Source of the DNA: Deltaproteobacteria bacterium
Lineage (GTDB): Bacteria > Myxococcota_A > Polyangia > GCA-2747355
Direction: 5' to 3'
DNA length: 32,935 bases
Assembly (NCBI GenBank): GCA_019314525.1
Contig: JAFCZD010000044.1
Location: 1 to 32,935, forward strand
Position 1 is the stretch's first letter, and the number at the start of each line of letters is the position of its first letter. The notes under the pieces are model-generated. The model searched no databases. It saw only the letters and a program-made list of their open reading frames with translations, and was not told the origin of the DNA. The translations under genes and the position numbers were made by a program. Below are positions 2,898-32,922 of this stretch, piece after piece.

Positions 2898-4285
2898 CAA
2901 ACAGCAACAGGCTGCTCACGCCGGCGGAGGAGCCTCACAGAGAGCAGCCGATGGATGACCTGACTGACATCAAAAGAACTCATCCGACTGTTGCGGATGA
3001 TATCCTTCACGGTGTTCTTGCCGTTGACCAACTCCAGCACAGCCAGCTCGTCTCGCGTCAGCTGCCCTCTCCCGAGCTCACCAAGAGCATCATCGTTGCG
3101 CACGAAGATCAGCTCGACGTTGTCCACATTTTGAGCGATGAGATGCCACTGGTCTACGCGGCGGAAACCCTCCATCAACGCACCCTGTACGGAGATGGCC
3201 AGGGCCGCTTCAGCGGCCACCGGGCTCGCTTGCTCAGCAGGACGAAACACGAAACGCCCCTCTTTCCAGCTGAGCAGCTCATAGAGCAGCTCGCAGGTCT
3301 GATCACGTAGCGCACCTTTGAGTTCATCCACAGCAAGATACCCGAGCTTGGCCAGTTGATGCCCGAGCAGCTTGGAAGACCCCGCGCGGCTCTTCAAGAA
3401 GAGCCCAAGGTCATCCTCGCTCATCAACCCACGCTTGAGCACGAAGCGCCCGAGTAAGAACTCATCATCCATACCTGCCGCCGTGGCGAGATCGATGTTC
3501 CCCTTCTTGAAGTGAAGATCGATCTGCGCGGTGGCGCGGCTGATCGTCAGTACACCGGTCTGCAGCTGCTCCGCGAGGAGCGCCAGGACCCCTCCAAGGG
3601 GTACAGCGGCCAGGGCACCCGACAGAACAGCGTCTGTCGCGCCGGCCAGCTCTGGTGCGTTCGCACGCAACTCGCCAAGGAACAGCTCCAAGATGGTGTC
3701 CGTGAGCGCCTTGTTGATCCAGCCTTCGAACGCCTCGGCTTCCTGCTCTGGAGCGCCCTCTGCACCTCGTAGCCGCTCAGCGAGCGCCACCCTCAAGGTA
3801 CTCAACGCTGTTTGGCGCGCCTCCTTTTGGGCATCTGCAGCGCTGACAAGCTCTTCTTCTGATGGCTCTGGGAGGAGCGCCTCAGCTGCAGCTTGTTCCT
3901 CCGTGCGCTCACGCTTTTTTGCGAGGGTCTCCCCGACCATCGTGGTGATGCCTTCAGGGGAGAAGGGCTTGGTGATGAAATCTACGATGCCCATCACCTT
4001 CACGAAGCGGTCGCCGACCTGATCTCCTTTGGCGCTCATCAACACGACGGGTATCGCCGCCAGCGCCTCTTCATTGTGCAGGACCTGACACACCTGATAG
4101 CCATTCATCTTTGGCATCACGAAATCGAGCAGGATAAGGTCGGGGGTGTGCTCACGCGCGAGCTCGAGGCCCTCGTCCCCATCACTTGCAGTCAAGACCT
4201 CGTAGCCCGCCTTTGCCAGCACGAGCTGCACCACCTTCAAGATGGTGGGGCTATCATCTACAACCAGGATGGTCTCGCTCGCCAT
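2897..4285 (-). CDS. Response regulator with C-terminal DUF4388 (PATAN-like) region
   Basis: A 462-residue protein. Residues 4-125 are a receiver (acidic D10-D11, phosphoacceptor Asp54 in L-L-D-F-V-M-P, Lys106). A Glu/Ala-rich linker (125-165) and a helical segment (about 165-215) follow, then a DUF4388/PATAN-like region (about 220-375) with the recurring features L-x-G-x-L-x-x-x-P-L and an inner G-x-L-x-x-x-x-x-x-G-x-x-x-x-x-x-x-G-x-I pattern. The last 80 residues resemble a winged-helix-like end (N-x-x-x-T-V-K-D-I-I). DUF4388 regions are frequent on regulators of gliding bacteria and are thought to mediate protein interactions. ATG at 4285 has an AGGGG Shine-Dalgarno. First gene of the operon that continues with the CheY-like and CheA-like proteins. 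A second receiver-DUF4388 protein lies at 26406-27161. Confidence 0.9.
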   Translation of the reverse strand: MASETILVVDDSPTILKVVQLVLAKAGYEVLTASDGDEGLELAREHTPDLILLDFVMPKMNGYQVCQVLHNEEALAAIPVVLMSAKGDQVGDRFVKVMGIVDFITKPFSPEGITTMVGETLAKKRERTEEQAAAEALLPEPSEEELVSAADAQKEARQTALSTLRVALAERLRGAEGAPEQEAEAFEGWINKALTDTILELFLGELRANAPELAGATDAVLSGALAAVPLGGVLALLAEQLQTGVLTISRATAQIDLHFKKGNIDLATAAGMDDEFLLGRFVLKRGLMSEDDLGLFLKSRAGSSKLLGHQLAKLGYLAVDELKGALRDQTCELLYELLSWKEGRFVFRPAEQASPVAAEAALAISVQGALMEGFRRVDQWHLIAQNVDNVELIFVRNDDALGELGRGQLTRDELAVLELVNGKNTVKDIIRNSRMSSFDVSQVIHRLLSVRLLRRREQPVAV

Positions 4286-4514
4286 CGAACCCCTGCCAGC
4301 TTCTTAATAAAAATGCCCAGTTAGAATGACCAACTCTAGCACCGCCCCCGATCGAGGGTCAAGGTATCGCAAAGCCTTGCTGACATGCTCCAGAACGCCC
4401 TTTGAACACTCCAACTCTTCCGATAACACAAGACCATGTTACTCTAGTCAAAACGAACGAGGATCTGCGCAACCGAGCCCACCGCGGGCGTGCGGCTGGT
4501 TGTGCTGTGGATTG
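4286..4514. promoter_or_regulatory. Divergent intergenic region between phosphorelay operon and tandem kinase gene
   Basis: This 229-bp stretch separates the minus-strand phosphorelay operon from the plus-strand kinase gene. It is visibly more AT-rich in places than the flanking genes (for example around 4300-4320 and 4425-4455) and must carry the promoters in both directions. No clear -35/-10 pair or operator palindrome could be singled out. Part of it is open in the kinase frame back to an ATG at 4326, but that translation looks non-coding. Confidence 0.4.
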
Positions 4515-7238
4515 ATGCAGCTGAGGCACTACCCAAGGCTTTTTGGTAAGTATGTGCTGGTGGCGCCCCTAGCTCGGGGTGGAATGGGGGAGCTACATCT
4601 TGCGATAGATGGTGATGGCGAGCGCAACAAACTCTTTGTCATCAAAGAGCTGCTCTCCGCCCTGACCGACCGGGAGTTCGGCGCTCGTTTCCTTCGTGAA
4701 GCCAAGCACTTGACGAGGCTCAGCCACGGCAACCTGGTGCCGGTCTTCGAGAGCGGGGTGCACGCTGGACGCTACTTCCTCGTGATGGAATACATCGAGG
4801 GCAAAGACCTGCGCGATGTATGGAACACGCTCCACGAGGCTGGCCACGACTTCCCCCTCGAGGTGGTGCTTTGCATCATCAAGCAGCTCTGTTGTGGTCT
4901 TGACTATGCTCACTCCTTTGGTGACCTCAACCTCATCCACCGTGACATGAGCCCACCCAATATCCTGCTCTCAAGCTCTGGAGAGCTGCGTGTGGTGGAC
5001 TTTGGACTAACCCCGAGCAAGACCAAGCTGCAGAAAAGTTCTCCAGGCGTATTCTTCAGCAAGTTGGCTTATATGGCCCCCGAGCAGGCTCGCGACGAGA
5101 AGTCCGACGCCAGGACGGACATCTACTCGGTGGGGATCATCTTGTGGGAGTTGATCACAGGCAAGCGGTTCTTGCCTTCAGTGGGGTCTCAGACAGACCA
5201 ACTCCAGCGAGCGGCCACACCACAGTATCAGCCACCGTCTTCGCTCAGAAAAGGCCTCCCACCAGAGCTCGATGTGATCACAGCACGAGCCCTCGCTCCC
5301 CTACCCAAAGATCGCTTCCCCACAGCAGAGGCCATGCGCGAGGCTGTGGCTGCCCTCCTCTCCAAGATTGATGCGACGGCCGACACATCGACCTTGCGCC
5401 AGTTCCTGCTTGAGCTTTACGGAGAGAAGCTCAAGCAAGAGCAAGAAGAACACCAAGCGCTGCTGGATCACATCTCCCCCACCATCAGCGAGCTGCGCGA
5501 ACAGGCCCGTCAAGCCACCACCGAACCCACCAAGGAGATGGAGGCGCCGCCCGAAGATAGGGACCAACCAGAGCTCGCCGTTGGCACGATGCTTGGAGAG
5601 CGCTACCGCATCGAGGCTCGGATGCGCCGCGGAGGTATGGGGACCGTCTACCAAGCAACTCACACGGGCATCGAGAAGCAGGTGGCGGTTAAAGTGCTCC
5701 ACCCCGTCTACCGCAGACACCCTGAGGTCGCGTCACGTTTCCGCCAAGAAGCCCGAGCAGCCTCCCGCATTGGGCACCCGAACATCATTGAGATCTTCGA
5801 CTCCGGCACAACCGCTGCCGGAGATATGTACTTTGTGATGGAATACCTCGCCGGCCAGGACCTCGCGGATCTGCTCGAATCCCTCCAACAACTGCCGGTG
5901 GAGCGAACGGTCAACATCGGTCTGCAAATCTGCCATGCTCTGGACGCCGCACACGAAGCGGGCATTGTCCACCGGGATCTCAAACCCGAGAATATCTTCC
6001 TCGTACCACGGGAGGGCCAGCTCGACTTCGTGAAGGTGCTCGATTTTGGTGTCGCCCAGACCCTCGACCTCGAAGAGGGAGAGATCGAGGGACGTGCCAA
6101 ACGCCTCACCTCTCCTGGGACCGCCATCGGCACGCCCGAATATATGTCCCCTGAGCAAGCCTCGGGGCTGGACTGCGATCACCGCACGGATATCTATGCT
6201 GTGGGTGTATTGCTCTACGAAATGCTGGCCGGAGAGCCCCCACACCATGGCGAGAGCTTGGCTGAGGTGCTGACCAAAAAAGCCACGGACGCCATCATAC
6301 CGCTTGCCTCGCTTCGAGCGAGCGTGCCCCCTGAACTCGATGGCGTGATCCTACGAGCCCTCGCCAAGAGCCCTGAGGATCGCCCCCAAGCCATGACGCA
6401 TTTGGCCTACGAGCTAAACAAGCTGGTGAGCGGTCGTGTGGGTGCCGTCGCCTCGATGCTCGGTCTCAGTGATCAGGCGTCCTCCCCTCCGGCGTCCTCC
6501 TCTCCGGCGCCTGGGCAAACGGCGCCCTCCCACGAGAGTGAGCGAAACAACACAGCCACCATGCGCCGCTTGAACGATAACCACCCCCCAGTCCTCTTCT
6601 TCCTGGGAGCCGCCGCCCTCGTCGCGCTGCTGGGGATCATTGTGGCCGCTCTCCAACTCTTCAAAACACCTCCCAGCCTCACTGCCACCACCACCCATTC
6701 AGCCACACCCCTCCGAGGACCGTCGGAAGCTCTCCGACGAACAAGCACACACCCTCTGGCCGCGCCCCCGGCCCATGACTCAGGCACGACATCCGGCGCT
6801 GATGCCACAGCAAACACCACACCTCTGAACCCTGCCCAAGCGCCGACACATAGGGTGCATGCACGCCGCCGCAGGCCTCGCTCGGATTACCTTCGTGTGG
6901 GCCATCGCCACCTCAAAGCTGGACACTTTCAGCGCGCTAAGGTCGCCTTCGAAGCCGCGCAACGCACCCCCCGACAGCGCGCCGCAGCGCTGGTGGGTCT
7001 CGCCCGGGTTGCCTTTCAGCGCCGCAATTATCGAGGGGCCAGCAAACAGGCAACTCGCGCTCTTCGCCTCGGCGGTGGGTGGCGCGCGAACCTCTGGCTC
7101 GCCAACGCTCAGTTCAAGTTAGGTGAGCACCAAAAAGCAATACGCAACTATGAAAGGGTGTTGAAGAGATCCCCCCGAAATCATGAAGCCAAACGAAACT
7201 TGAGGGCAGCACGCCAGGCCCTCAATGGGCGACGCTAG
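4515..7238 (+). CDS. Membrane Ser/Thr protein kinase with two tandem kinase domains and TPR tail
   Basis: About 907 residues from the ATG at 4515. Kinase domain 1 (12-285): glycine loop A-R-G-G-M-G-E, Lys44, H-R-D at 142-144, D-F-G at 162-164, A-P-E at 188-190, all canonical. Kinase domain 2 (363-635): R-R-G-G-M-G, Lys393, H-R-D at 486-488, D-F-G at 510-512. A linker with E-L-Y-G-E (299-303) and a glutamate-rich helix joins them. After a Pro/Ser/Ala-rich stretch comes a single membrane segment (about 692-715), then an outside Pro/Thr linker and a basic TPR-like repeat region (about 790-907). Both kinase domains should be active and face the cytoplasm; the TPR region would be periplasmic and may sense a partner. 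The frame is open back to 4326, but those 63 residues lack kinase-family character, so 4515 is preferred. A paralogue with the same plan follows 188 bp downstream. Confidence 0.9.
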   Translation: MQLRHYPRLFGKYVLVAPLARGGMGELHLAIDGDGERNKLFVIKELLSALTDREFGARFLREAKHLTRLSHGNLVPVFESGVHAGRYFLVMEYIEGKDLRDVWNTLHEAGHDFPLEVVLCIIKQLCCGLDYAHSFGDLNLIHRDMSPPNILLSSSGELRVVDFGLTPSKTKLQKSSPGVFFSKLAYMAPEQARDEKSDARTDIYSVGIILWELITGKRFLPSVGSQTDQLQRAATPQYQPPSSLRKGLPPELDVITARALAPLPKDRFPTAEAMREAVAALLSKIDATADTSTLRQFLLELYGEKLKQEQEEHQALLDHISPTISELREQARQATTEPTKEMEAPPEDRDQPELAVGTMLGERYRIEARMRRGGMGTVYQATHTGIEKQVAVKVLHPVYRRHPEVASRFRQEARAASRIGHPNIIEIFDSGTTAAGDMYFVMEYLAGQDLADLLESLQQLPVERTVNIGLQICHALDAAHEAGIVHRDLKPENIFLVPREGQLDFVKVLDFGVAQTLDLEEGEIEGRAKRLTSPGTAIGTPEYMSPEQASGLDCDHRTDIYAVGVLLYEMLAGEPPHHGESLAEVLTKKATDAIIPLASLRASVPPELDGVILRALAKSPEDRPQAMTHLAYELNKLVSGRVGAVASMLGLSDQASSPPASSSPAPGQTAPSHESERNNTATMRRLNDNHPPVLFFLGAAALVALLGIIVAALQLFKTPPSLTATTTHSATPLRGPSEALRRTSTHPLAAPPAHDSGTTSGADATANTTPLNPAQAPTHRVHARRRRPRSDYLRVGHRHLKAGHFQRAKVAFEAAQRTPRQRAAALVGLARVAFQRRNYRGASKQATRALRLGGGWRANLWLANAQFKLGEHQKAIRNYERVLKRSPRNHEAKRNLRAARQALNGRR

Positions 7239-14833: not shown

Positions 14834-15583
14834 ATGACACCCAAATGCCTGCTCGTCACCTGCTGCGCCGCTCTGGCCCTGACCCTCGCTCCCGGGCTGG
14901 GGCACGCCTCTGGTCTTGTCTATGACCACAACGGACAAGTGGTGCGCTACCCGGTCAAGCTCTATTTTCCGGAGGTCGCGCCACCTGCGCCGGTGGTGGT
15001 GGTGCCCACACCTGTGGTCGTACCCGCGGCCATGGTCGTCCAGCCTTACCCCGTGGTGCTGCCCTCTGTGCATCTCGTGACACGGGATCCCTACAAGACC
15101 TCTGGCATCGTGATCGTCGGCGCTGGATTCGGCGGGCTCTTGCTGCACGCCAACGATTCATCAACCTTGGTGCCGAACTACCGGTTGCATATTGGGCTGG
15201 CGGTGGGCACCTCGGAAATCGCCGCGCGCATCGACCTCGCGCCCAAAGGCGCCGCGCTCTCGCTCGAAGAGGGTGTTGACACCCTCTCCATCGTCGCACC
15301 CCGATTGACCTTCGAGCATCGCTTCTTGCCACGCTCTCCCATTCATCCCATCGCCGGACTGGGCCTGGGCGCGATCATCGCGTCTCCAGACCAAGGTGAG
15401 ACAGCCTATGCCATGGCGGTCACCGCTCGCGCGGGCCTCGAATTCGCCTACCCCCTCGCCCACAGCGCCTTGGCCCTCGGGCTCGACATCACAGGTCATC
15501 TGCCCGTTGCCCGCTCCGATCCCTTCCCTGTGGATCTTACGGCCATGCTCAGCTTCGGCGCCTACCTCGATTTCCGCTTCTAG
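14834..15583 (+). CDS. Putative outer-membrane beta-barrel protein
   Basis: About 249 residues. A Sec signal peptide (1-26, ending G-H-A-S) is followed by a short domain, a Val/Pro-rich linker (about 50-80) and a region of alternating hydrophobic residues with glycines (90-249) that ends in Y-L-D-F-R-F, the terminal Phe typical of outer-membrane proteins. The family could not be named. An AGAGGAAG Shine-Dalgarno ends 8 to 9 nt before the ATG at 14834; the frame is open upstream to 14768 but with poorer start context. The gene lies 37 bp after the VWA lipoprotein and is probably co-transcribed with it. Its stop codon overlaps the stop of the convergent MYXO-CTERM gene. Confidence 0.75.
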   Translation: MTPKCLLVTCCAALALTLAPGLGHASGLVYDHNGQVVRYPVKLYFPEVAPPAPVVVVPTPVVVPAAMVVQPYPVVLPSVHLVTRDPYKTSGIVIVGAGFGGLLLHANDSSTLVPNYRLHIGLAVGTSEIAARIDLAPKGAALSLEEGVDTLSIVAPRLTFEHRFLPRSPIHPIAGLGLGAIIASPDQGETAYAMAVTARAGLEFAYPLAHSALALGLDITGHLPVARSDPFPVDLTAMLSFGAYLDFRF

Positions 15584-16659
15584 GGACGGCGGCGCCTGCG
15601 GCCGATGAAACCCAGGGCGAGCAACAAAGGCAACGAGAGCTGGGCGGTGTGCTCGCCACGAGCAGCGCAGCCGCAACCATCTCCACCGCCATCGGGTGCC
15701 CCGGCGTCAACGTAGGGCATGGCGTCACGGCCGCCCCCCCCGTCCACTATGGCGCCGTCCACTCTAACGTCCGGCCTGACGCCATCGTGGGTGACATCTG
15801 TCACACGCTGGTCACCCAGGTCCTCGTCTGGCAGATCTCCTGAGCCCACATCATGGGTCGTGTCCGGGCCGGCGTCCACGGTGGTATCGACGCTGCTATC
15901 CCCCTCCGCCCCGTCCACGCTGCTGTCCACCAACACATCCACCTGGAAATCAGCAGGCGCGACCAAGCGATAATGGGTGGAGCTGCTCACCGTGGCCAGG
16001 GCCGTCCACTGTGTCGCGCCCGTGGGGGCGTTCCAATCATCCTTAGGGGCGTTGATGGTATCCTGAGCGTTATCTGTGGGCACGGTCCCCGTGCTCAACA
16101 CCTCAACCCAGATCTCGGATGGATCGCCAATGTCACTGCGCGCAACTTTCCACTCGATAACGGTCCCGTTGGCGTTGGCGTGTGCCGCGGCTGCTGTGAC
16201 CACCACCTCGGTGGGGCTCCACGCGCTCCCCGTCCACGTTCGGATCCTCGCGTTGGACGCCCCATAGGCGCCGGTGCCCTTGATCCAGGTATTGATGGAG
16301 TATTCGGGTTTATGGGGATCCTTGGCGACGATCTGACGTGTCCACGCATCGCTGGTGGCTCCTGCCTGATCGTTGGTCGTGTCGACATAGAAGAGGAAAG
16401 ATTTCTCCTCGGTGGCGTTCTCATCCACGCTGCCCAGCAGCGAGAACGCGACGTAAAGGAAGGTTTCATCGTGGGTGATGTGCAAATCCACGAGATCCCA
16501 TTGTGGCTTGCGAGCGACGCTCGTGGCGTAGTCGCCTGCGCCATCGCTCGCCAAGGCGGCACCGTACTCCCCATCGACGACACCGTCCACGGTAGGCGCG
16601 GCATTCGCTGTGCAACACCACGAGATGATCAGCAAGCAGGCAAAGACGCTTCGCGACAT
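15580..16659 (-). CDS. MYXO-CTERM-type surface protein with sugar-binding-like domain
   Basis: About 359 residues from the ATG at 16659 (GGGAG ribosome binding site 7 nt upstream). A Sec signal peptide ends in A-N-A-A. Residues 22-220 form a beta-rich domain with V-D-G-V-V-D-G-E-Y near its start and W-D-L-V-D-L ... L-Y-V-A-F, a pattern seen in CBM9-like/DOMON-type domains; substrate unknown. An Asp/Val/Gly-rich low-complexity stalk follows (about 240-325). The C-terminus has G-C-G-C, a hydrophobic stretch and a terminal R-R-R-R-R-P cluster, the MYXO-CTERM plan of surface-sorted proteins in Myxococcota, thought to be processed by rhombosortase/CAAX-like myxosortases. The frame extends upstream to 16749 but the signal peptide and ribosome binding site fix 16659. 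Its TAG overlaps the convergent gene's TAG in CTAG. Confidence 0.85.
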   Translation of the reverse strand: MSRSVFACLLIISWCCTANAAPTVDGVVDGEYGAALASDGAGDYATSVARKPQWDLVDLHITHDETFLYVAFSLLGSVDENATEEKSFLFYVDTTNDQAGATSDAWTRQIVAKDPHKPEYSINTWIKGTGAYGASNARIRTWTGSAWSPTEVVVTAAAAHANANGTVIEWKVARSDIGDPSEIWVEVLSTGTVPTDNAQDTINAPKDDWNAPTGATQWTALATVSSSTHYRLVAPADFQVDVLVDSSVDGAEGDSSVDTTVDAGPDTTHDVGSGDLPDEDLGDQRVTDVTHDGVRPDVRVDGAIVDGGGGRDAMPYVDAGAPDGGGDGCGCAARGEHTAQLSLPLLLALGFIGRRRRRP

Positions 16660-16806
16660 GTGGATCTCCCAAAAGACGAAACGCCAGAAGTATACCAGAC
16701 CGTAGGGGCGACGTGACACCCTGAGGTCGTGGCTTTGGCAAAAGCACACCTGGATCTTTGCCGACAGGGCTGGCGATGGAGATTAATGTTGCGTATGGAA
16801 GGAAGG

Positions 16807-29727: not shown

Positions 29728-30807
29728 GTGAAGGTGAAGCCCTACTACTATCTCACTCCTGTCCTCGGTGGCTTGGATGCGCCTCGGTACCCCATAGACG
29801 AGCTGCCTCGTATCGTTGGGCGTGCCGAGGAGGCCGCAATCCCGCTGCTTGAGCCCACGGTTTCGCGGGAACACGCCACGATTTCATTGGTCAATGGACA
29901 AGTAATCCTCAAAGACCATGGCAGCAAACATGGCACCTTCGTCAACTCCAAGCGGATCACGCAGAAGGTGCTGAACACCGGCGATATCGTGGTCTTTGGG
30001 CTGAGCCTCGTCCTGCGTCTCGAGGAAAGTGACGAGCCTGTCCCTCTCCCTGCCCCCATTTATGAGCCAGAGGAACAGAATAGTGAGCCCCTATCGCAGG
30101 TGCCACGGACCCCTTCGAGCAACGCCCAGCCAGCAAGTGCTGCAGTGGACGAGGCTCGAGAGGTCACGGTGAAGCTGCGCAAGCTCGCCACCCTCGGCGG
30201 CCTCGTTGGGATACGGCTGCCGATGGTCCATCAGAACCTCGCAAATTTGGCGGATCTGGCTGGGCGCGAAGAGATCGAATTGCAGGTGCTAGCTCAGCGC
30301 CTGGTGCCCCTCGTCGCCCACATCGAATCCCTGCTCGACGAGGCCCACGTGGCGCGCCCGCAGCTCGATCCAGCCGATCTCTTGGTCGTCTGCAAAGCAG
30401 CGGTCGAGGACGTCAACACCCACGCACGTGAGCGTGATGTGCGCATCGTTACCAACGTCCCCAGCGACATCATCGTCCTCAGTGACGCCTTCCGACTGCA
30501 GGTGGCGCTCACGCGTTTGCTGGAGAACTCCCTTGAGGCCAGCCCCCCAGGTGGACAGGTCGAGTTGGATGGCTTCGCAGATGAGCAGTGGGCCTATCTC
30601 TCCGTCACCGATCAAGGGCGTGGCATACCTGCAGAAGTAGGAGAGCGCCTCTTCGACCCCTTCATCACCTCCAAGCAGGACTGGCAACATGTCGGGCTCG
30701 GTCTCTTTGAAGCCCGTCAAACCATTGGACTTCTTGGAGGTCGCCTCGAGCTGGACTCCGACGCCGCTCAGGGGGCCAGCTTCCGCATGACCCTACCGAA
30801 GCTCTAG
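29728..30807 (+). CDS. FHA domain and histidine-kinase-like ATPase protein lacking the H-box histidine
   Basis: A 359-residue cytoplasmic protein. FHA domain (about 25-100): V-G-R (30-32), V-S-R-E-H (45-49), H-G-T-F (68-71). A helical region (140-210) matches the H-box surroundings (L-A-T-L-G-G-L) but has Pro165 where a phosphoacceptor His would be; His168 is nearby and displaced. The HATPase domain (about 215-359) has L-L-E-N-S-L-E-A-S (N-box, Asn267), D-Q-G-R-G-I (295-300), F-D-P-F-I-T-S-K and G-L-G-L (323-326). ATP binding is expected; autophosphorylation is doubtful. It is in an operon with the upstream kinase (25-bp gap, GTG start) and 97 bp before the peptide/radical SAM unit. Confidence 0.87.
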   Translation: MKVKPYYYLTPVLGGLDAPRYPIDELPRIVGRAEEAAIPLLEPTVSREHATISLVNGQVILKDHGSKHGTFVNSKRITQKVLNTGDIVVFGLSLVLRLEESDEPVPLPAPIYEPEEQNSEPLSQVPRTPSSNAQPASAAVDEAREVTVKLRKLATLGGLVGIRLPMVHQNLANLADLAGREEIELQVLAQRLVPLVAHIESLLDEAHVARPQLDPADLLVVCKAAVEDVNTHARERDVRIVTNVPSDIIVLSDAFRLQVALTRLLENSLEASPPGGQVELDGFADEQWAYLSVTDQGRGIPAEVGERLFDPFITSKQDWQHVGLGLFEARQTIGLLGGRLELDSDAAQGASFRMTLPKL

Positions 30808-30904: not shown

Positions 30905-31255
30905 ATGGACCCCAAAACTGCTCGCGCGATGATCGACAAGCTTTGCGACGAAATTGACGAGAATCATCGCGGTCAATCGCGTTTTGCCGAGGTGATGAAG
31001 GTAGCGCGCACGCTGGGCTTTGGTATCGCCATCGGTCTCGCGACTGTGGGTTGTGGGGACGATGACGACAAGGTGCCAGACGCCACTGCCGCCTATGGTG
31101 TCCCAGATTCCGTCCTGGTCCAAGACAGCGGTGTGGATACGATCGCTGGCCCGGACGCAGCCTATGGCATCCCCATGGACGCTGGTGTGCCTGAGGCCGC
31201 CCTCCCAGAGATGGGACTGCTCTACGGGATCCCCGCCGACGACGGCGGCCAATAA
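30905..31255 (+). CDS. Lipoprotein-like peptide with three YG[VI]P motifs, putative substrate of the radical SAM enzyme
   Basis: A 116-residue protein. Residues 1-30 are charged and helical; 31-50 (M-K-V-A-R then a Gly/Ala-rich hydrophobic stretch) end in A-T-V-G-C-G, a lipobox-like site at Cys50 followed by D-D-D-D. The rest is acidic and carries A-A-Y-G-V-P (62-67), A-A-Y-G-I-P (85-90) and L-L-Y-G-I-P (105-110), with Y-to-Y distances of 23 and 20 residues and mostly Asp/Pro/Ala between. The strong AAAAGGTGG ribosome binding site 6 nt before the ATG at 30905 supports the long start; Met31 at 30995 would give a shorter signal. The radical SAM/SPASM gene starts 6 bp after the stop. Small motif-repeat proteins beside a SPASM enzyme are usually its substrates. 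It resembles the lipoproteins of the 'rSAM/lipoprotein' systems in Bacteroidetes as remembered; product chemistry unknown. Confidence 0.85.
   Translation: MDPKTARAMIDKLCDEIDENHRGQSRFAEVMKVARTLGFGIAIGLATVGCGDDDDKVPDATAAYGVPDSVLVQDSGVDTIAGPDAAYGIPMDAGVPEAALPEMGLLYGIPADDGGQ
31088..31240 (+). repeat. Three spaced xYG[VI]P motif units in the putative substrate peptide
   Basis: The Tyr codons lie at 31094, 31163 and 31223. Units 1 and 2 share P-D-A and A-A-Y-G-[VI]-P with flanking acidic residues; unit 3 has L-L-Y-G-I-P-A-D-D. Codon use differs between the copies (TAT/TAC, GGT/GGC/GGG), so the protein motif has been kept while the DNA has diverged. Confidence 0.85.
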
Positions 31256-31261
31256 CCCCTC

Positions 31262-32353
31262 ATGCTGCAGCTATTGGAGAAAGTGGGCTTTGTCCCGCGA
31301 CAGGGCGTATGGGAGATCACGCTGGCCTGCAACCTGCGTTGTGGTCACTGTGGCTCGCGAGCTGGCGAAGCACGGCCAGATGAACTGACCACCGAAGAGG
31401 CCTTTGGCGTCATCGACAACCTCGCCACCTTGGGTTGCAGGCACATGACCCTCGCAGGGGGCGAGCCCACGCTGAGGGAAGACTGGCCTCAGTTGGTTGG
31501 GCGCTTGCGAGAAAAGGGCGTCCTGCCCTCGTTGCTCTCCAATGGCCTGACCTGGACAAGAGAGCTCTGCGAGCACGCCAAGGCCGCGGGGATTCACCAC
31601 ATCGGCTTCAGCCTTGACGGGCTCGAGCGCACCCACGATTGCGTGCGAAAGGCCAACGACAGTTATAAGAAAGTCCTCGAGGCCATCGACATCAGTGTGA
31701 AGGCCGAGGTCCCCGTCGTCGCCGTCACCCACATCACGCGCCGCAATATCGCCCAGGTGGAAGAGCTCCATCAGCTTCTGCACGAGCATGGCGTCTTCAT
31801 CTGGCAGGTACAGCTGGGTGTGCCCATGGGAAATATGCGTGAGGACATGGAGGCGGTCTTGCCGCCAGAGGGCGTCTTGGAGTTGGTGCCGAAGATCGCC
31901 GAGATCAATCAACGAGGCGTATCACCACGAATCGTCGCGGCTGACAACATCGGCTACTACGGCGAGCATGAAGAGCACCTGCGGCGAGCTGGGAGACGCA
32001 TCCCGTTTTGGCTCGGATGCCGTGCTGGCATTGACGTCATTGGTATCGAAAGCAACGGCGATGTCAAAGGCTGCCTCTCCTTGCCTTCGGGCCTGAACGA
32101 TTGCAGTGACTTCATCGAAGGCAACGTGCGACGGCAATCACTGGTGGATATCTGGTGTAATCCCGAGGCTTTCGCCTACAATCGCAAGTTCAGCACCGAC
32201 CAGCTCAAGGGCAGCTGCGCGGGCTGTGATTATGGCGAGATCTGCCGCGGTGGCTGCACGTGGACGGCCGTATCGAATACTGGCCACCCCCACGACTTCC
32301 CGCAGTGCTATCACTGCCATACAAAAGGCAAAGCCAAGCCAGCCTCTGCATAA
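31262..32353 (+). CDS. Radical SAM/SPASM domain peptide-modifying enzyme
   Basis: A 363-residue enzyme. The radical SAM core (15-235) has C-x-x-x-C-x-x-C at Cys23, Cys27, Cys30 for the SAM-binding [4Fe-4S] cluster and G-G-E-P at 66-69. The SPASM domain (about 250-352) has Cys253, Cys271, Cys319, Cys322, Cys328, Cys332, Cys349 and Cys352, enough for two auxiliary [4Fe-4S] clusters as in AnSME, PqqE and RiPP maturases. No N-terminal RRE (PqqD-like) domain is seen; only about 15 residues precede the core. Neighbour context makes the adjacent YG[VI]P peptide the likely substrate, with reaction options such as thioether or C-C bond formation, epimerisation or tyramine excision. Start ATG lies 6 bp after the peptide gene, so they are co-translated. 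Cytoplasmic. Confidence 0.93.
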   Translation: MLQLLEKVGFVPRQGVWEITLACNLRCGHCGSRAGEARPDELTTEEAFGVIDNLATLGCRHMTLAGGEPTLREDWPQLVGRLREKGVLPSLLSNGLTWTRELCEHAKAAGIHHIGFSLDGLERTHDCVRKANDSYKKVLEAIDISVKAEVPVVAVTHITRRNIAQVEELHQLLHEHGVFIWQVQLGVPMGNMREDMEAVLPPEGVLELVPKIAEINQRGVSPRIVAADNIGYYGEHEEHLRRAGRRIPFWLGCRAGIDVIGIESNGDVKGCLSLPSGLNDCSDFIEGNVRRQSLVDIWCNPEAFAYNRKFSTDQLKGSCAGCDYGEICRGGCTWTAVSNTGHPHDFPQCYHCHTKGKAKPASA

Positions 32354-32356
32354 GCC

Positions 32357-32395
32357 CACACCATCCATCAGCGAGTGCATGATGGCGTGGGTGTG
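32357..32395 (+). terminator. Imperfect hairpin after the radical SAM gene
   Basis: CACACC (32357-32362) pairs with GGTGTG (32390-32395), and CCATC (32365-32369) pairs with GATGG (32381-32385), with an asymmetric internal loop between. An A-run (32404-32411) follows rather than a T-run, so it is not a canonical intrinsic terminator; it may reduce transcription into the CcmE-like gene. Confidence 0.3.
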
Positions 32396-32427
32396 CTAGG
32401 TTTAAAAAAAACTGACGGAAATTTGCG

Positions 32428-32922
32428 ATGACTGTGCAGCCTAATCCTCGAAAGAACACTTGGTTGATGGGGCTCATCTCGGCCCTCGTTGTGGCAGGTG
32501 GTATCGGCTACCTCGTGGTCAGCTCCATCGGAGATGGCAGCGCTCTCGAGTATTTCAAGGATGTCCATGAGGCAGTGGACGGCTCCACCAAGTGGGTGGG
32601 TCGCAAGCTGCGTATGCGAGGCAACGTAATCGCGGGCACCATCCAAAAGAAGAAGGGCTCTTTGGACTACCGCTTCGCCCTCTACACAAAGAATCGCTGG
32701 GTGGAGGTCAAATACCGCGGCCTAGTCCCAGACGCCTTCAAAGACTGTGCTGAGGTGGTCGTCAAGGGGGAGCTCACCGCCCCTGACCGCTTCAACGCTC
32801 ACACCATCACAGCTAAATGCCCCTCCAAATACGAAGAGAAGACACGCCTCAAAGGCTGCGGCACCCAGCTCAAGACCGCCGTGCTCACTGCACGCAGCAA
32901 GAGCAAGACTTCGGTAAACTGA
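32428..32922 (+). CDS. ccmE: CcmE-like haem chaperone with CxxxY haem site
   Basis: A 164-residue protein. A cytoplasmic N-terminus and one membrane segment (about 13-32) precede an OB-fold-like domain (about 55-132) with V-G-R-K-L-R-M-R-G and V-K-Y-R-G-L-V-P-D-A-F, as in CcmE. CcmE carries haem covalently on its way to cytochrome c, normally on the His of H-x-x-x-Y. Here the site is A-K-C-P-S-K-Y, with Cys131 and Tyr135, the C-x-x-x-Y variant known from some delta-proteobacteria and archaea. A further Cys144 lies in the tail. No other ccm gene is in the window up to its end. ATG at 32428 has a GGAAA ribosome binding site 8 nt upstream. It follows the radical SAM gene by 74 bp. Confidence 0.85.
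   Translation: MTVQPNPRKNTWLMGLISALVVAGGIGYLVVSSIGDGSALEYFKDVHEAVDGSTKWVGRKLRMRGNVIAGTIQKKKGSLDYRFALYTKNRWVEVKYRGLVPDAFKDCAEVVVKGELTAPDRFNAHTITAKCPSKYEEKTRLKGCGTQLKTAVLTARSKSKTSVN

Follow-up and report, generated by a model that had tools for sequence, protein, structure and literature searches.

Organization of the locus

The stretch of DNA analysed here (the window, 32,935 nucleotides) derives from a genome of 1,038 contigs that is 84% complete, and carries close to its end a tandem pair of genes for a small lipoprotein-like protein and a radical SAM/SPASM enzyme, both opening with ATG and separated by 6 bp from stop to start (Table 1). The listing of open reading frames placed both genes exactly where the original prediction had put them, and the observation of a motif-bearing lipoprotein paired with a radical SAM/SPASM enzyme was confirmed as a whole. 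Its interpretation, a pair devoted to the modification of a peptide or lipoprotein, was likewise supported, with corrections regarding the invariance of the glycine in the motif and the cut-offs of the enzyme families. Elsewhere in the window, positions 15583-16782 of the minus strand, read from stop to stop, form an open frame of 400 residues that had no Pfam match at E<=0.001 and is overlapped on the opposite strand by a frame of 290 residues.

Table 1. Coordinates of the gene pair, its internal features and its neighbours in the window.
Feature	Position	Strand	Evidence or remark
FHA/histidine-kinase protein, upstream of the pair	29728-30807		Pfam
Precursor lipoprotein, 116 aa	30905..31255	+	ORF; relatives with similar leader and motif
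Leader, residues 1-32 (MDxK...LCDEID)	30905..31000	+	putative enzyme-recognition segment; similar N-termini in L005, L011 and L076
Hydrophobic signal segment ending in lipobox-like Cys50 (LATVGC)	31001..31054	+	lipidation predicted
Motif 1, AYGVP (Tyr64)	31091..31105	+	
Motif 2, AYGIP (Tyr87)	31160..31174	+	
Motif 3, LYGIP (Tyr107)	31220..31234	+	
Radical SAM/SPASM enzyme, 363 aa	31262..32353	+	Pfam Radical_SAM 8.6e-23, SPASM 1.4e-07
CX3CX2C of the SAM-binding cluster (C23, C27, C30)	31328..31351	+	invariant in 22 aligned sequences
Hairpin directly 3' of the enzyme gene, possible end of a two-gene unit	32351..32404	+	-23.8 kcal/mol, z -2.64; 1 of 200 shuffles as stable; no U run after it
CcmE-domain protein, downstream of the pair	32428-32922		Pfam

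The precursor lipoprotein

In the precursor a hydrophilic leader is followed by a hydrophobic segment, Cys50 and an acidic tail with the sites AYGVP, AYGIP and LYGIP, all of which contain the X-Y-G motif (AYG, AYG, LYG). The only three tyrosines of the protein lie inside these sites at spacings of 23 and 20 residues, in keeping with the near-even arrangement of [AL]-Y-G-[VI]-P copies first noticed. Their codons vary from copy to copy (GCC TAT GGT GTC CCA, GCC TAT GGC ATC CCC and CTC TAC GGG ATC CCC) and the motifs outlast the linkers in the comparison with the nearest relative given below, which bears out the view that the motif is kept in the protein and not in the codons. A chance origin was rejected on the basis of the reversed-motif control in the clade (see below) and of 200,000 shuffles of the precursor, none of which contained three YGxP copies and 35 of which contained two. 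Three is an unexceptional number of motifs, since relatives have up to ten sites. The GC content at codon positions 1-3 is 0.72/0.46/0.67 in the precursor gene and 0.63/0.44/0.73 in the enzyme gene.

Cys50 fits a lipobox pattern of the PROSITE type, yet it is placed at an atypical distance from the N-terminus because a leader of about 30 residues stands before the signal segment; in ordinary lipoproteins the lipobox Cys is nearer the N-terminus. The precursor gave no match in Pfam and none above cut-off in NCBIfam, and by the same searches no leader of the nif11 or nitrile-hydratase type was seen. Searched against its own genome, it retrieved only itself above noise (next E 0.24).

The closest relative is found at locus L005 (the same as L075 and L104), with an enzyme 67% identical to that of the window and a precursor containing AYGVP, AYGVP and AYGIP. 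The two precursors are identical at 11 of 12 motif positions and 18 of 46 linker positions, and share 11 of 32 leader residues and 7 of 17 residues of the signal segment. Conservation of the motif copies among homologues is thus seen in this relative, and the motif recurs across the clade. A larger block common to the window and L005/L104 was rejected, only the pair matching at 1e-5 and the flanks compared showing no match.

The radical SAM/SPASM enzyme

Besides the three cysteines of the CX3CX2C motif, the enzyme has C253, C271, C319, C322, C328, C332 and C349 in the SPASM region, and these positions together with the Pfam matches uphold its assignment as a radical SAM/SPASM protein with core and auxiliary-cluster cysteines. 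The AlphaFold2 model (mean pLDDT 91.7) has one short helix before the barrel and no extra N-terminal domain, and SkfB ranked best among the solved folds compared with it.

The two best curated models for the enzyme are those of the peptide maturases TIGR03913 (283.8 bits, cut-off 591.75) and TIGR04103, which we take to be the same family as IPR026482 (275.6 bits, cut-off 725), both scores lying below cut-off; the score to TIGR04133 is 163.2 bits (cut-off 425). The pair stays under the cut-off of every NCBIfam family among the matches listed, and membership in TIGR04103, TIGR03913 or TIGR04133/TIGR04134 was rejected on these scores. No RRE partner of the PlpY kind was found beside the pair, the neighbours being the FHA/histidine-kinase and CcmE proteins, and the two PqqD matches over cut-off in the source genome are on other contigs than the pair. 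The enzyme combines the cysteines required of SPASM peptide maturases with a genetically linked probable substrate.

Fusions and neighbours in the enzyme clade

The sample comprised 70 loci of named genomes and a search of 59 genomes, 57 of which gave some radical SAM match at E<=0.001 and two none. With further regions added, the number of distinct enzymes compared was 151 at first and 177 after a profile search of a larger set, identical core sequences being merged. A C-terminal lipobox-like segment was flagged in 20 of the 177 enzymes, and 19 of these 20 belong to the 33-member clade of the window enzyme. Seventeen of these 19 fused tails contain YG or Y[AMS]xP, the richest of them having ten such sites; the two exceptions are L089 and L091, whose lipobox-like segment is in frame and whose tail is free of both types. 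L156, flagged as fused, lacking YG and placed on a very long branch, was set aside. For five of the 33 enzymes (window, L005, L076, L078 and L084) the preceding frame is a separate lipoprotein, which at L076, L078 and L084 stops directly ahead of the open frame of the enzyme. The pairing is therefore kept in related genomes, as expected from the original prediction, 22 of the 33 clade enzymes having a motif-bearing lipoprotein fused or adjacent.

At least two Y[GAMS]xP sites in one tail or neighbouring frame were counted for 17 of the 33 enzymes (reversed-motif control, 1/33), and at least two YGxP sites, counted in the same way, for 14 (reversed, 0). In separate and fused forms alike, the lipobox-like Cys is kept between the leader or enzyme and the core. 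A motif-bearing tail or neighbour was not found for 11 of the 33 (L089, L091, L113, L114, L116, L118, L006, L077, L079, L080 and L081). The contig of L006 begins about 200 bp upstream of the enzyme. For L077, L079, L080 and L081, neither the sequence within 4 kb nor a leader search of the respective genomes (G018, G010, G034 and G049) yielded a precursor. At L011, left out of the count of 33 because its enzyme gene (3714-4798) is split over two frames, the precursor is apparently intact and contains LYGTP and AYGVP. Two fused enzymes stand in tandem at L087 (5-1471 and 1408-2835), one tail having YS only and the other YG, YS and YM.

Fusion is the strongest evidence that enzyme and lipoprotein are enzyme and substrate, and taken together with the co-occurrence it makes this putative link well supported.

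Leader-bearing lipoproteins away from the enzyme

A leader profile made from six precursor N-termini, which is not fully blind to the motif because three of its six rows include a YGxP site, was searched in the 59 genomes and recovered the window precursor and the enzyme-adjacent precursors of genomes G001, G004, G056 and G053. Matches from the first model position further comprised five stand-alone proteins encoded on other contigs, four belonging to G056 and one to G053, two of the 58 other genomes. Each of the five is lipobox-like with one or more Y[GAMS]xP sites, and in no case did the surrounding 4-6 kb show a radical SAM frame. The enzyme-adjacent precursor of G056 (L078) has YM and YA sites only, and the stand-alone proteins of this genome include YG sites (four YGxP in L261). 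Of seven weaker leader matches examined, six were lipoprotein-like without the motif and one (L269) had two YGIP.

Variation of the motif

Downstream of the lipobox Cys, 28 substrates of the clade comprise 4,043 residues, and 130 of the 193 tyrosines among them lie in Y[GAMS]x(1-2)P, a census that favours Tyr because the proteins were picked by a lipobox-like segment plus a Y site; it omits the site-free tails of L089 and L091 and includes the near-duplicates L007/L008 and L082/L083. The residue after Tyr is G in 86 sites, M in 20, S in 12 and A in 12, and the residue before it is D (31), L (24), A (24), E (21), K (8), V (8) or another. Phe, Trp or His in the place of Tyr were not seen at further sites of the 28 substrates, as searched with a slightly narrower pattern.

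Thirteen of the substrates have YG without Y[AMS]xP, nine are mixed and six have YM, YA or YS only. Therefore Gly is not needed clade-wide, whereas the known splicing motif is XYG, and a strict requirement for Gly after Tyr was rejected for the clade. The X-Y-G signature originally proposed holds for the window and does not hold as an invariant of its relatives: Tyr is the constant of the sites, and Gly is common without being required.

Kinship of the enzymes

Enzymes covering fewer than 280 model positions, and L011, were left out of the trees. In a careful tree of 69 enzymes picked by hand, the window clade, represented by 24 enzymes (93/87), was joined to a clade of 21 (100/100) by a branch with support 83/50. 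A quick tree of 137 rows, for which 30 loci were omitted (16 from Flavobacterium, the remainder from what looked like other close kin; the choice was made by organism and not by a test), gave support of 94 for nearly the same joint set of 75. The clade of 21 contains a true TIGR04103 enzyme (L164, 804 bits) and a true TIGR03913 enzyme (L018, 732 bits). The window clade is probably sister to this clade of the PlpX-type splicease family and TIGR03913, the joining branch (83/50) being weak; this placement and the two best models of the enzyme put it outside the non-peptide SPASM clades, in agreement with the original prediction.

The nif11-like precursors of L164 contain AMYGAILP, AMYGAVIP and AMYGVILP. 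Sister to L164 is L043 (Eremiobacterota; 100/98), which scores 636 bits against TIGR04103 and has a lipoprotein with VYGGP and VYGAP; the lipoprotein of L092 (495 bits to TIGR04103) has VYGAP twice and DYGAP. Across the PlpX clade the association is thinner, 2 of the 21 enzymes having at least two YGxP in a neighbour (reversed, 0) and the remainder one site or no site. Forty-seven alignment columns reach 90% identity or more in the window clade as well as in the PlpX clade; 13 of these 47 are not shared by the outgroup, A34, G35, R38, Q184, E263 and K269 (numbering of the 363-aa protein) among them. The window enzyme is 37.5% identical to L164.

The outgroup is TIGR04133-like and includes L189 (603 bits, cut-off 425), whose lipoprotein contains DMYGCP. 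TIGR04133 is also the best model for L223, L224, L227 and L217 (332-384 bits) and for L220 and L003 (257-267 bits), and the partner lipoproteins of these six enzymes contain CYGMP, CYGPP, CYGGY, CYGVS or KYGGP. TIGR04134, searched in 5 and later in 149 Bacteroidota genomes, matched a single protein over cut-off, beside L189. Lipoproteins with YG occur around the characterised splicease family on more than one side, and since they also stand beside the more distant TIGR04133-like enzymes, the motif is no specific mark of splicease chemistry.

Several other arrangements of the YG site were seen in the sampled loci. A second pair in the source genome (L003/L163, G000:C931) consists of a SPASM enzyme (best model TIGR04133, 267 of 425 bits) and a lipoprotein-like protein that has four KYGGP and begins with the twin-arginine-like SRRSFL; the repeat region shifts frame, and a counterpart at L220 has five KYGGP. 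At L223, L224, L217, L227 and L229 the YG directly follows the predicted lipid Cys (CYGMP, CYGPP, CYGVS, CYGGY), so that the X of X-Y-G would itself be lipidated. A zinc-ribbon-like leader (CxxC...CPFCG type) precedes the lipobox and YG site at L092, L099, L102, L151 and L269, four of which are beside PlpX-clade enzymes, L269 being found alone. Lipoproteins with YGVP/YAVP or paired YGxP lie near tandem SPASM enzymes of deeper branches at L130, L131 and L147, and peptides with Y[GA] ahead of a GDL-like motif occur on the TIGR03913 side (L012, L013, L015, L018, L029, L042, L060 and L061).

Proposed mode of action and alternatives

The enzyme very probably acts on the motif tyrosines, a site of action suggested by the conservation of both the Tyr and the motif. 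We favour, with a probability of about 0.55, the reading of the pair as a lipoprotein-directed, splicease-like unit in which tyramine would be excised at X-Y-G. In this scenario the precursor would be bound in the cytoplasm through its N-terminal leader, and before export the enzyme would act on the Tyr of each X-Y-G-[VI]-P site, with the presumed loss of tyramine at each of them. After export, cleavage and lipidation at Cys50 would follow provided that the lipobox is in use, and the flexible tail, now anchored, would bear three electrophilic ketoamides. Among the fused relatives the enzyme would take the place of the leader, and the lipobox could free the modified tail from the enzyme. As a guess, the ketoamides might serve as anchored protease inhibitors with X as the P1 residue, because protease inhibition by ketoamide products is stated in two papers (PMC10373908, PMC11117315).

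According to PMC10533398, PlpXY acts on MYG and LYG sites, removing C8H9NO (135.0757 Da) and leaving a ketoamide, and the XYG motif was shown by mutational analysis, as a review summarizes (PMC10373908). The LYGIP and AYG[VI]P sites of the window fit the XYG of known splicing. Of 16 tagged FtsZ constructs listed for PlpXY, the enzyme accepted only two, each with a GYGLPI tag, whereas the two carrying LYGLPI failed (PMC10533398); the motif alone is therefore not enough, even for PlpXY. The failure of the LYGLPI tags weakens the splicease reading, as do the lack of a visible substrate for 11 of 33 enzymes, the substrates with YM, YA or YS only, the missing adjacent RRE protein, the scores below cut-off and the weak joining branch (83/50). 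Most of these counter-results leave the enzyme-substrate link untouched.

It is rather unlikely, and still deserves weight, that the enzyme acts on the Tyr of Y-[GAMS]-x-P with another chemistry, be it a crosslink of Tyr with a neighbour (-2 Da), a mycofactocin-like reaction of the decarboxylation type or some other modification of Tyr. Tyr and Pro are constant while the residue between Tyr and x varies across the 130 sites, as another chemistry would allow, but YG sites dominate. SkfB, PqqE and SuiB, which we take to be crosslinking enzymes, are among the nearest solved folds, and the window enzyme is below the family cut-offs among the matches listed; on the other hand, the probable sister clade contains the PlpX-type family, and YA is found beside YG in peptides of this sister clade too, so that Ala after Tyr need not mean other chemistry. 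A conventional secreted RiPP, with leader and signal removed and the YG core released as a peptide in place of an anchored lipoprotein, is improbable: the layout of leader and core with several sites per precursor is RiPP-like, but a lipobox-like Cys is retained ahead of the core in both separate and fused forms, and the immediate neighbours are not a protease or transporter. That the lipoprotein is structural or signalling, the enzyme modifies something else and their adjacency is coincidental is very improbable, for the enzymes without motif tail or neighbour (11/33) and the stand-alone lipoproteins without an enzyme within 4-6 kb are set against 17 in-frame fusions with motif tails, the 6 bp between the window genes, the abutting frames of L076, L078 and L084 and a reversed-motif control of 1/33.

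Extending the splicease-like reading beyond the window is more tentative. It may be that a widespread, possibly ancestral system exists in which splicease-like enzymes excise tyramine from X-Y-G-x-P repeats of surface lipoproteins to give ketoamide membrane proteins, one enzyme serving several scattered leader-bearing lipoproteins and some enzymes bearing their own C-terminal substrate tail released by signal peptidase II, with nif11-type spliceotides and GDL peptides as later offshoots. If tyramine excision holds true, bacteria would make β-amino-acid, ketoamide proteins anchored at the cell envelope besides secreted peptides, and the function of several little-characterised SPASM families (rSAM/lipoprotein, GDL peptide and KYGGP) could be tested by one assay. 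The fused forms would represent natural single-chain enzyme-substrate systems, and labelling could profit from an enzyme that has no RRE partner and encounters many different residues in front of Tyr.

Comparison with known systems

PlpX is assigned to IPR026482 and was expressed together with the RRE protein PlpY, according to PMC11002830. The window pair shares with PlpX/PlpY a SPASM radical SAM enzyme, several X-Y-G sites per precursor and the 47 columns mentioned above, and differs in having neither a nif11-type leader match nor an adjacent RRE protein, in the lipobox of its precursor, and in the distance of its enzyme from TIGR04103 in both score (275.6 of 725 bits) and identity to the true member L164 (37.5%). 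The maturases of GDL-motif peptides (TIGR03913) provide the best-scoring model, and Y[GA] was present in the peptides beside 8 of 8 enzymes examined (LYGVSI, PYGVAV, LYAAGI), in a listing filtered for YG or GDL. The window score, in contrast, is 283.8 of 591.75 bits, the TIGR03913-side tails extend some 105-140 residues past the shared domain, and no lipobox-like segment was seen among the peptides listed.

The likeness to the Bacteroidetes rSAM/lipoprotein pairs (TIGR04133/TIGR04134), already remarked upon in the original prediction, was substantiated: in both cases an enzyme stands beside a small lipoprotein with YG soon after the lipobox (DMYGCP in L189; CYGMP and CYGPP in L223 and L224), and the sole TIGR04134 match over cut-off is the DMYGCP protein beside the true TIGR04133 enzyme. 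These pairs nevertheless form a separate branch (100/100), the window enzyme reaches 163.2 of 425 bits, its precursor has no TIGR04134 match (cut-off 39.8), and the L189 lipoprotein has one YGxP site versus three in the window. SkfB, PqqE and SuiB share the overall fold of the window enzyme (TM by query 0.65-0.73) at 18-24% identity, and the N-terminal RRE domain that SkfB and SuiB presumably possess is absent from its model.

No description of the fusions or of this lipoprotein group was found in the literature searched, which did not cover the splicease survey of Scott et al. 2022 (Chem), where the group may have been described before. The group is marked by repeated motifs, a leader placed before the lipobox and fusions of enzyme and probable substrate, on a splicease-like or rSAM/lipoprotein-like background.
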